Positions 53,614 through 57,990 of a stretch of 64,000 bases of DNA are shown here, in pieces; position 1 is the stretch's first letter; every line of letters begins with the position of its first letter. A model generated the notes under the pieces. It was not told where the DNA came from. It searched no databases and saw only the letters and a program-made list of their open reading frames with translations. The translations under genes and the position numbers were made by a program. The stretch comes from a virus: the IMG/VR virus record IMGVR_UViG_3300006914_000013, positions 1 through 64,000 of that record; one strand, given 5' to 3'.

Positions 53614-54002
53614 GGCTGGTCCTCGATCGGCGGGATTTCGTCGTCGCAGCATTCACACTGCAACGGTTCTGAGTACCGCAGCTCCGTGGCCACCACCCGG
53701 AGCAGGTAACTTTCCGGGTGGCGCAGGCCGTAGAGCAGATCGCGCAGCAGCACGCGCATGCAGCGCCGACAGATCGCCCGGCCTTCGTCGGTGATGCAGA
53801 CGAAGCGCCGGCCTTCCACGGCGTCCTCCAGAAAGCGCAGCGTGGCGCGCAGCTGGTGCCCGTCGCTGATCTGGTAGAACACGTCACGGTAACCGGTGCG
53901 CAGGCGCTTGCCGGTGCGCCGGTCGTACAGATCGCCGTGGACCTCTTCGTAGTGCCCTGGCTGTGGAAACAGGTCGAGCTGGTTACGCGACGGATACCCC
54001 AT
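53610..54002 (-). CDS. Hypothetical Cys-rich protein
   Basis: 130 residues. Two Cys pairs, CRRC near residue 79 and CECC near 117, could hold a metal. The N-terminus is hydrophilic (GHYEEVHGDLYDRRTGKRLR). Its start overlaps the end of the methyltransferase by 20 bases. Function unknown. Confidence 0.55.
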   Translation of the reverse strand: MGYPSRNQLDLFPQPGHYEEVHGDLYDRRTGKRLRTGYRDVFYQISDGHQLRATLRFLEDAVEGRRFVCITDEGRAICRRCMRVLLRDLLYGLRHPESYLLRVVATELRYSEPLQCECCDDEIPPIEDQP

Positions 54003-55125
54003 GACCTGCCCCCTCGGCGTCCATGAACGCTTCTATGAAGACTTGAGCCGCTTGCGCGTTGACGGCATTGCCATAGCCGCGCAGGCGTCCCACTCGGCCG
54101 GGTATCCCATGAGCCAGCGGGAATGTTCCGGCCTCAACTGGCCGCCACTTTCCATCCCGGCAGCCGAGCCAGTCAGCAGTTCGCCAGAAGCCGTTAACCG
54201 GGCCGGGGTGCAGAGGTACGCCTGCCTCGGGAGCTGGTCGTTCCGTTCCCGGCCGTCCCGGGTGGCCACCATGCCCGGGGTGTCCTTGTGGTCCCGGGTG
54301 GTCGGCGTGGTCCAGCCGCACAGGTGATACGACACGACTTCCACCGTCTTGCGGGAGCTGTCGTTGTTCCCCGCTGCGTTGTTGCCGTTCTGCGCTGGCG
54401 TCCCGGCCATCGGCGTCGGCCAGCCCGCGAGCTGGGTGCAAGTGTGCAAGGCCATCCCGCCCTGCTTGTTCGCCGAGTTCCCCGGGCCGTTGGTGTCCGA
54501 GGTCTTGGGTGTCGGCCAGCCTGTCAGCGTTACCGCTGCCGCCAAGTCCGGCCCGTGATTGCGCATAGCTTCCCGCAGACCACCCTCGGGTGAACGCACT
54601 CCCTTGTCGGCCAGGCTGGCTGTTGGCGTAGGCCACCCAGTACAGTCGGTCACGAATGTGCGGCGCACCGACCCCCGCAGACGGGAACGGGACGGCCCCA
54701 AAGGCGTAATCCAGGGCTTCCAGGTTAGCGTGTACAAGGTCGACCCAAGGGTCGACAGCCTTGCTCGCAACTTGCTCTCCAAAAACGACTGAAGGCTTTG
54801 ACTGCTCGATGAGCCAGGCAAAACTTGGCCAGAGGTGTCTTGGGTCCTCAAACCCCGCTCCAATGCCTGCCGCGGAGAAAGGCTGACACGGACAAGATCC
54901 AGTCCAAACAGCCCGGTCATCAGGCCATCCGGCGGCACGCAGGGCATAAGACCAGCCGCCAAGGCCGGCGAAGAAATGGCACTGGGTGAAGCCGAACAGG
55001 TCACGGGGTTCGACATCCTCGATACTCCTTTCATCCACGATGCCGGGGGCGATCAGGCCCTCGGCGATCAGGTTGCGCAGCCATTGCGCAGCGTAAGGGT
55101 CAATCTCGTTGTAATACGCGGCCAC
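53983..55125 (-). CDS. DNA (cytosine-5) methyltransferase
   Basis: 380 residues from a GTG. Motif I is FFAGLGGWSYALRAAGW (near 50), motif IV with the catalytic Cys GSCPCQPFSAAG (near 77), motif VI GEQVAS (Gln where Asn is usual), motif VIII IRDRLYWVA, and motif X LRGYGNAVNAQAAQVFI near the end. The enzyme transfers methyl from SAM to cytosine, probably to protect phage DNA. Between motif VIII and the C-terminal motifs the sequence is low complexity (His, Gly, Asp, Arg), and another reading frame spans nearly the whole gene, so this part is probably constrained by that frame. Confidence 0.88.
   Translation of the reverse strand: MAAYYNEIDPYAAQWLRNLIAEGLIAPGIVDERSIEDVEPRDLFGFTQCHFFAGLGGWSYALRAAGWPDDRAVWTGSCPCQPFSAAGIGAGFEDPRHLWPSFAWLIEQSKPSVVFGEQVASKAVDPWVDLVHANLEALDYAFGAVPFPSAGVGAPHIRDRLYWVAYANSQPGRQGSAFTRGWSAGSYAQSRAGLGGSGNADRLADTQDLGHQRPGELGEQAGRDGLAHLHPARGLADADGRDASAERQQRSGEQRQLPQDGGSRVVSPVRLDHADHPGPQGHPGHGGHPGRPGTERPAPEAGVPLHPGPVNGFWRTADWLGCRDGKWRPVEAGTFPLAHGIPGRVGRLRGYGNAVNAQAAQVFIEAFMDAEGAGHGVSVA
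54033..55016 (-). CDS. Nested gene inside the methyltransferase, alternate frame
   Basis: 327 residues, fully within the methyltransferase gene on the same strand but another frame. The ATG 55016 has a canonical AAGGAG (55025-55030) eight bases upstream. The protein begins MSNPVTCSASPSAISSPALA, has LYTLTWKPWITPLGPSRSRL, four GW(P/T)TP motifs (GWPTPTASLAD, GWPTPKTSDT, GWPTPMAGTP, GWTTPTTRDH) and ends SRWLMGYPAEWDACAAMAMP. It looks like a genuine protein, not a random translation, and I recall similar WPTP-rich proteins beside such methyltransferases in other phages. Function unknown; possibly a methyltransferase partner or specificity factor. Confidence 0.6.
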   Translation of the reverse strand: MSNPVTCSASPSAISSPALAAGLMPCVPPDGLMTGLFGLDLVRVSLSPRQALERGLRTQDTSGQVLPGSSSSQSLQSFLESKLRARLSTLGSTLYTLTWKPWITPLGPSRSRLRGSVRRTFVTDCTGWPTPTASLADKGVRSPEGGLREAMRNHGPDLAAAVTLTGWPTPKTSDTNGPGNSANKQGGMALHTCTQLAGWPTPMAGTPAQNGNNAAGNNDSSRKTVEVVSYHLCGWTTPTTRDHKDTPGMVATRDGRERNDQLPRQAYLCTPARLTASGELLTGSAAGMESGGQLRPEHSRWLMGYPAEWDACAAMAMPSTRKRLKSS

Positions 55126-57007: not shown

Positions 57008-57253
57008 TTAAAGCCCCCCGTAGCCGTCTTTTTCCAGCGCGACCTTGATCAGCCCGCTGATGGTTTTCGGCCCGGCGGCGGTGTCCTTGTTCGACAGGCG
57101 GCGGGTTTCCAGTTCACGGATCATCGACTTCGGCAAGCTGATGGTGATCGAGGCCGGGACATCTTTCTCGCCGTCCCCCGCCACACCCGCCAAGCGTTTG
57201 GCCAAGTCCCCAGCGATCTGCGCTTGGCTTTTCTCTGCCTCTGCCTTACCCAT
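57008..57253 (-). CDS. ParG-like ribbon-helix-helix partition protein
   Basis: 81 residues. A mobile basic N-terminus (GKAEAEKSQAQIAGDLAKRL) precedes a ribbon-helix-helix: VPASITISLPKSMIRELETR, then a second helix in TISGLIKVALEKDG. Length and layout fit ParG-type centromere-binding proteins of type Ib partition systems. The gene overlaps the end of the ParA-like gene by 8 bases, the expected parF-parG order. It probably binds the repeated sites upstream of the pair and at 56281-56309. Confidence 0.65.
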   Translation of the reverse strand: MGKAEAEKSQAQIAGDLAKRLAGVAGDGEKDVPASITISLPKSMIRELETRRLSNKDTAAGPKTISGLIKVALEKDGYGGL

Positions 57254-57887
57254 AAAACACCTCGTCCAGTAGTTCGTTGATTTCTTCTTTGGCTTTGTTG
57301 CTGCCGCACTCCAGCACCGACAGCCCCTTTTTCATGCTGCTTTTGTAGATTTTGCGGTAGCGCCCGACGCTGTTCAGCACCTCAAACTCGGGGTACGGCA
57401 GCAGGGCTTCAAGGAATTCCGCACGCTCGATGACCCTGCCTTGGGCGTGGGTTTCGCCGAACGTCTGATAGATCAGGACGCGCAGTTTCGGGTTCGACGG
57501 CGAAATCTCGGCGTACTGCTTGCGCAGGCGCTTGAGCGTGTCGGTGTCCAGTTCACTGCATTGCAGCGGGCAGATGACTATGTCCGCCACGCACATCGAC
57601 GTGATCAGTTCCGTGCTGTTGTGCCCGGCCACGTCGATCAGCACATGCTCGTACTTGTCGGCCAGGTTGGCGACGGCGTTCACCAGGTTGCCGTACTTCT
57701 GCGCGTGCGGGACCACCGGCTGGTGTTCGGCGGCTGCCCGGTTGCCGTGCCAGAGGTGACAACTGCCCTGCCCATCACCATCGAGCACGACCACGTCCTT
57801 GCCTCTAATCGTCAGACCGATCGCGAGGTTCATGCAGGTGGTCGTCTTGCCCACCCCACCCTTGTTGCTGCCCACGACAACTTTCAT
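57246..57887 (-). CDS. ParA/ParF-like partition ATPase
   Basis: 213 residues from ATG 57887 (MKVVVGSNKGGVGKTTTCMN). The deviant Walker A KGGVGKTT (near 10-17) has the signature lysine, Walker A' is VLDGDGQGS, and Walker B is HVLIDVAGH. No N-terminal helix-turn-helix, so it is the short ParF (type Ib) form, which pairs with ribbon-helix-helix partners. These ATPases move plasmid DNA on the nucleoid. In a phage this suggests maintenance as a plasmid, or another positioning role. Confidence 0.88.
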   Translation of the reverse strand: MKVVVGSNKGGVGKTTTCMNLAIGLTIRGKDVVVLDGDGQGSCHLWHGNRAAAEHQPVVPHAQKYGNLVNAVANLADKYEHVLIDVAGHNSTELITSMCVADIVICPLQCSELDTDTLKRLRKQYAEISPSNPKLRVLIYQTFGETHAQGRVIERAEFLEALLPYPEFEVLNSVGRYRKIYKSSMKKGLSVLECGSNKAKEEINELLDEVFYG

Positions 57888-57893
57888 AAAATT

Positions 57894-57990
57894 GGCCCTC
57901 ACCAGTTTTAAAACCCGTTGGTACACAGTACCGCTGGTGAGCCTAGCGTCCGCGCCATGAATACGCAATTCATGTATGTGAATTCATGGA
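57894..57990. promoter_or_regulatory. Operator/centromere-like region upstream of parF
   Basis: Contains CTCACCAG with CTGGTGAG flanking GGTAC-ACA-GTACC, then three copies of CATGAAT/ATTCATG (57956-57962, 57968-57974, 57982-57988). The outer pair forms CCATGAAT with ATTCATGG, and the last two copies are 14 bases apart. Repeats like these are typical of sites bound by ribbon-helix-helix partition proteins. Confidence 0.5.

Follow-up and report, generated by a model that had tools for sequence, protein, structure and literature searches.

The window analysed here, by which the whole stretch of DNA is meant, comprises 64 kb of the 84,385-base virus record IMGVR_UViG_3300006914_000013 (IMG/VR). 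On its minus strand it contains a 380-codon gene of a C5 cytosine DNA methyltransferase (53983-55125, GTG start at 55125), within which a second gene is read on the same strand. This inner gene occupies the +1 frame of the outer one and codes for 327 amino acids (aa) from an ATG at 55016 to a stop at 54033-54035; a further in-frame ATG is situated upstream at 55034, from which a product of 333 aa would result. The Shine-Dalgarno (SD) sequence AAGGAG (55030-55025) precedes the ATG at 55016 with a spacing of 8 nt. An earlier reading of the window, made from its letters and open reading frames (sequence-only reading), had already described the nested 327-codon frame, its own ATG with AAGGAG eight bases upstream, four GW(P/T)TP motifs in the inner protein and motifs I, IV, VI, VIII and X in the outer one, and all of these, coordinates included, were recovered. 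The outer and inner products are called alpha and beta below, and the features of the locus, including those ascribed to a target recognition domain (TRD), are as follows.

53983..55125, minus strand: alpha, C5 cytosine methyltransferase of 380 aa with motifs I, IV, VI, VIII and X and without motif IX (PF00145, E=7.6e-13; phrog_363, 1.1e-87; M.HhaI by profile match at 1e-13 and by fold search of the alpha model)
54607..55125, minus strand: catalytic domain of alpha, residues 1-173, motifs I-VIII (AlphaFold2 predicted local distance difference test, pLDDT; Pfam match at residues 74-171)
54175..54606, minus strand: linker of alpha, residues 174-317, of low complexity and predicted disordered, at the TRD position (pLDDT 31-43 per block; outer amino-acid identity 0.33 among relatives)
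54037..54090, minus strand: motif X of alpha (GRLRGYGNAVNAQAAQVF) and start of the C-terminal helix (conserved columns 346-363 in alignment A2; helix 342-376)
55025..55030, minus strand: internal SD AAGGAG (sequence; codon excess, Arg as AGG)
54033..55016, minus strand: beta, inner +1 gene, 327 aa, with TRD-like repeats and putative motif IX (phrog_31772, 1.2e-39; phrog_1008, 1.5e-33; conserved open frame; synonymous constraint)
54639..54899, minus strand: N-terminal half of beta, residues ~40 to 126, over motifs IV-VIII of alpha (SLESKL..YTLTWKPWITP..RRT; four-fold site identity; modelled helix and strands)
54222..54638, minus strand: TRD-like region of beta with four GW(P/T)TP repeats (hhalign of the inner profile against the fused methyltransferase profile, columns 206-356, E=2.7e-9)
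54087..54143, minus strand: putative motif IX of beta (GQLRPEHSRWLMGYPAEWD), aligned to PRLNAAIVEWLMGLPAGWVT, the segment directly before motif X in single-chain relatives

Alpha possesses the catalytic features of a C5 methyltransferase, namely PCQ, the Glu of motif VI, RxR of motif VIII and motif X. In alignment A2 residues P79, Q81, E117, R158 and R160 are invariant, and C80 and G352-N353-A354 nearly so. Motif VI (54757-54780, minus strand) reads GEQV in place of the usual ENV, with G, E, Q and V invariant among 56 relatives. The AlphaFold2 model is confident only at residues 1-173, where pLDDT mostly reaches 83-97 per 10-residue block with dips at 81-90 and 151-160, and at the motif X helix (342-376). 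The linker between them is poorly conserved and predicted disordered, in accordance with the earlier remark that the outer frame degenerates where the inner one is best conserved. Motif IX was not found in the outer frame, and wherever it was found in nested loci it lay in +1; alpha does not combine motif IX and TRD in one chain as a monomeric enzyme does. Motif IX and a folded TRD are, judged from alignment and model, precisely what is missing from alpha.

Whether both frames are coding, as the sequence-only reading had proposed, was addressed with 79 loci (L082-L160) fetched with the outer protein alone and hence chosen blind to the inner frame. The +1 frame was open over 262-617 codons in 79/79 of these loci, always in the same relative frame and with an inner homologue present, and the +2 frame showed 7-26 stops. 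Homologues without the inner frame, named earlier as the observation that would overturn an inner gene, were not encountered among these 79 loci, so that this refutation fails. Permutation of synonymous codons in the window gene gave a mean of 3.75 stops in the inner interval, which remained open in 0.5% of trials, and the same permutation of the outer genes puts an expected mean of 3.4 stops per gene into that interval; only this null is informative, because the real intervals run to the first stop and contain none by construction.

Codon usage at the internal start is likewise biased. The outer motif DxRSIxDV spans the internal SD and ATG, and its Arg is encoded by AGG in 50/114 nonredundant loci, compared with 5% elsewhere in the same genes, while its Asp is encoded by GAT, which creates the inner ATG, in 103/114 compared with 25.5% elsewhere. 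The excess is retained in the subset sampled with the outer protein (AGG 14/54 vs 4.7%; GAT 45/54 vs 28%). The internal start is selected for itself, its SD and ATG codons being kept beyond the needs of the outer protein.

The earlier proposal to compare synonymous rates across homologues was followed at four-fold degenerate codons with an identical outer amino acid, the non-overlapped gene start serving as control. Third-base agreement amounted to 35.9% at outer codons 3-28, despite 84% protein identity there, and to 65.4% and 78.7% within the overlap in the catalytic and C-terminal parts, respectively; synonymous sites of the outer gene are thus constrained in the overlap only. Four-fold identity was 0.60-0.85 across beta residues ~40-126 and 0.34-0.39 before the overlap. 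The signal rises sharply near outer codon 76 and drops after codon ~171, where the alignment of relatives weakens, and the same rise was observed in a second family of lower GC content (Paenibacillus phage Jacopo-like). It also climbs near motif VIII in the set of fused, i.e. single-chain, genes, which is no clean negative control since nine of its loci carry LPTP repeats in +1. As the compared sequences are mutually related, no single p-value counts as independent evidence, and intervals were obtained by resampling sequences. Inner-frame identity was also set against a null of outer genes with permuted synonymous codons, but this was dropped as evidence, for the +2 frame also exceeded the null via shared ancestry. 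The inner frame is a real gene under strong selection.

As to the identity of its product, no match was obtained among Pfam or NCBIfam models. The database search suggested earlier did return the two PHROG families listed above, both labelled 'DNA methyltransferase' there. All inner relatives (57/57) match phrog_1008, a family shared by the nested inner proteins of K1G, Jacopo and the window, by the free-standing gp61 of Gordonia phage Float294 and by residues 186-383 of a single-chain enzyme. When the inner profile was compared with the single-chain profile by hhalign, the TRD region and the motif-IX segment were aligned (probability 96.2%, E=2.7e-9). The single-chain profile in turn matches M.HhaI at 2e-35, its LSPxFxEWMMGLP segment falling on RKLHPRECARVMGYPDSYK of M.HhaI just before motif X, although this stretch alone scores -1.9 bits. 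Because of the hhalign alignment and the coverage of a single-chain member by phrog_1008, the inner protein is taken to carry a TRD-like region and motif IX. Its C-terminal half corresponds by homology to the stretch that contains TRD and motif IX in phage C5 methyltransferases of the single-chain and tandem-split forms. The inner product, for which the sequence-only reading had stated no known role, is thereby likely the TRD/motif-IX part of the enzyme. The N-terminal half of beta, over motifs IV-VIII, is without a counterpart in single-chain relatives and may perhaps serve in docking; the beta model shows a helix (70-89) and strands (95-102/110-117) there at pLDDT 76-82.

Since alpha is without TRD and motif IX and beta carries them, the two appear as complementary parts of one C5 enzyme, and very probably the two overlapping frames, read on the same strand, code for the two subunits of a single C5 cytosine DNA methyltransferase. 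Frame conservation, the selected internal start, synonymous constraint, homology to single-chain enzymes, the phrog_1008 matches, the alpha model, the position of the nested forms in the tree and the precedent of M.EcoHK31I speak for this reading. Several results weigh against it. Synonymous constraint is weak over the first ~38 residues of beta, and searches of solved-structure profiles with the whole inner profile and with the motif-IX profile gave no methyltransferase match, which is why motif IX was assigned via the single-chain relatives. Moreover, beta alone was modelled too poorly to be of use (mean pLDDT 57), and a fold search with this model gave no match.

The lack of a fold match, together with the strong constraint on beta residues ~40-126 despite their having no single-chain counterpart, would also suit an inner protein that is real and merely derived from a methyltransferase fragment, with a separate role, e.g. 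as a regulator or anti-restriction factor. This is regarded as unlikely, for practically all nested loci sampled hold both alpha and beta, the part absent from alpha is just what beta has, and in Float294 a member of the beta family forms the second, downstream half of a methyltransferase split in two. The domain order of single-chain relatives could also be restored by a programmed frameshift near motif VIII; the N-terminal part of alpha would then continue into the inner frame, giving one chain with TRD and motif IX, and the inner ATG would go unused. Such a product would be devoid of motif X, the constraint in +1 extends over motifs IV-VIII of alpha, where a shift after motif VIII has no need of it, and the conservation of the internal SD and ATG exceeds what alpha requires; a frameshift is accordingly held to be very improbable. 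Least credible, to the point of being negligible, is the view that the inner frame stays open passively, as a result of base composition and of the strongly conserved outer protein. GC-rich +1 frames do tend to be open, and the inner N-terminus partly mirrors conserved outer motifs, but 3.4 stops per gene are expected under synonymous permutation, the +2 frame holds many stops, synonymous sites are conserved in the overlap only and the same layout is encountered at GC contents of 0.38-0.50.

Under the two-subunit reading, alpha would be translated from the GTG at 55125, and ribosomes would also initiate at 55016 in +1 to yield beta. Alpha would contribute binding of S-adenosylmethionine and the catalytic cysteine (motifs I-VIII) as well as, across an unstructured linker, the motif X helix at its C-terminus, and beta, after its overprinted N-terminal segment, would contribute target recognition by the TRD-like repeats and motif IX, supplying in trans the small DNA-recognising domain absent from alpha. 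The pair may then methylate cytosine in phage (or host) DNA, probably for restriction evasion. We infer binding between alpha and beta, the need of both for activity and this biological purpose.

Overprinting of about 1 kb was called rare in the sequence-only reading, yet the nested layout is no peculiarity of this phage but the usual one in a large clade of phage methyltransferases. It is found in Salmonella phage epsilon15, Burkholderia phage BcepC6B and Escherichia phages N15 and K1G, furthermore in Xanthomonas, Erythrobacter and Komagataeibacter phages, Paenibacillus phage Jacopo and Mycobacterium phage Zerg, as well as in 77/80 loci of bacterial genomes and 91/99 distinct loci fetched with three distant methyltransferases. 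Cases of an inner frame without the outer one were suspected in Erythrobacter R6L and Komagataeibacter phiKX1; the outer frame is present in both and merely unannotated. In phiKX1 (L164) and in locus L003 the outer frame departs from the usual motif X region, and several hundred bases downstream a further stretch resembles motif X; the inner frame is intact in both.

Two other layouts exist. In Float294 (L169) gp61 is not nested and follows gp62, which holds motifs I-VIII; gp61 (phrog_1008, 4.8e-51) contains in one frame LPTP repeats, followed by LNPKLSEWMMGLP and lastly by motif X (LGNGVVPQQ). The two form a tandem-split C5 methyltransferase (I-VIII, then TRD-IX-X), although each is annotated as a DNA methylase of its own. 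Among the 80 loci of a search with gp61, catalytic domain, LPTP/linker region, motif-IX segment and motif X were united in one chain in 44, and the motif-IX segment lay in a separate downstream gene in 35. A second variant of nesting was noted in nine 'fused' loci (including the viral contigs L230, L232, L236 and L251), with LPTP repeats in +1 and, in the main frame, an ADADRDGR-type linker besides motifs I-VIII, IX and X.

In an unrooted tree of 79 catalytic domains, the layouts are separated by a well-supported branch (100/99). The 43 nested domains, which are of proteobacterial, Paenibacillus, mycobacterial and environmental origin, group on its one side, where a single fused and a single tandem domain are the two exceptions; every remaining fused or tandem domain falls on the opposite side. 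Loci L437 and L440, situated within the nested clade, have motif IX in the frame of the catalytic domain, and motif X was not detected in them; this form suggests a recent fusion or a broken copy. As C5 enzymes are generally single chains, the fused form is the likely ancestral state. TRD and motif IX are then likely ancestral in the inner frame, over which the outer linker is an overprint, and the N-terminal half of beta is likely an overprint on the catalytic domain. The earlier view of an inner frame overprinted on the outer one is thereby upheld for the N-terminal half of beta and reversed for the C-terminal half, where the outer frame looks overprinted. This phage C5 clade, present in phages of Proteobacteria, Firmicutes and Actinobacteria, probably consists of obligate alpha/beta heterodimers that arose by reciprocal overprinting: an ancestral single chain would have been split by frame changes, with TRD and motif IX kept in +1 and motif X back in the catalytic frame, and each frame would then have been extended over the other's half. 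Most phage records of a 'DNA cytosine methyltransferase' of this kind would be without their specificity-subunit gene.

Most records of nested loci annotate only one of the two proteins. The nested frame is drawn in a few, namely as K1G ORF30 'Mte8-like', in PhiXhv-28 and as Jacopo_57, with no stated link to a subunit function. In Pseudomonas phage LPPA33 (L174, OR188720) the omission is reversed, the beta frame (WNO25067.1) being annotated and the overlapping methyltransferase frame left out. No paper on the nested phage gene pair was found in a literature search whose coverage excluded most subscription journals. Should the two-subunit reading hold, many phage methyltransferases in the databases are two proteins under the annotation of one, target-specificity prediction changes, and inactivity of alpha cloned with altered codons or expressed alone is accounted for. 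The overlap is also long and very widely conserved on the same strand in double-stranded DNA phages; with fused, tandem and nested forms as three related layouts, the way in which such an overlapping gene pair arose can be tested directly, and the family would offer natural split methyltransferases for targeted-methylation tools. In the neighbourhood, a gene for a ParA-like partition protein (phrog_164, 2.6e-40) lies at 57246-57968 on the minus strand, upstream of the methyltransferase by ~2 kb, and may be a sign of a plasmid-like prophage.

Among known systems, the small polypeptide of EcoHK31I is reportedly read from an alternative frame inside the gene of the large one, a nesting that is seen here directly. 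M.EcoHK31I beta comprises about 176 aa, whereas the present beta has 327 aa and holds TRD-like repeats too. M.EcoHK31I (YGGCCR) carries motifs I-VIII and X in its large subunit, in which its TRD is also predicted, and motif IX in a separate smaller polypeptide (PMC3404938), so that by described motif layout both enzymes split motif IX from motifs I-VIII and X. It differs as the methyltransferase of a restriction-modification system, the present locus being phage-borne. M.AquI is another C5 methyltransferase made from two polypeptides (PMC3404938). However, its small subunit has motifs IX and X, whereas here the inner frame ends without motif X, which is located in alpha, and the genes are nested; the M.AquI tandem form is resembled by gp62/gp61 of Float294, homologous to the present pair. 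In single-chain phage enzymes of the L180 type, catalytic domain and TRD/motif IX are homologous to the pair, but TRD, IX and X lie in one frame, and the tree places these enzymes and the nested forms on opposite sides. Escherichia phage K1G (GU196277) displays the same nesting, with ORF30, a 'putative Mte8-like protein' (PHROG 1008, 1.3e-55), inside the ORF31 methylase; its beta is of 230 aa, and the record assigns it neither a function nor a link to the methylase. By analogy, the locus would thus belong to a known kind, the split enzyme like M.EcoHK31I, and what appears new is the placement of TRD and motif IX in beta, the long reciprocal overlap and the very wide distribution in phages.
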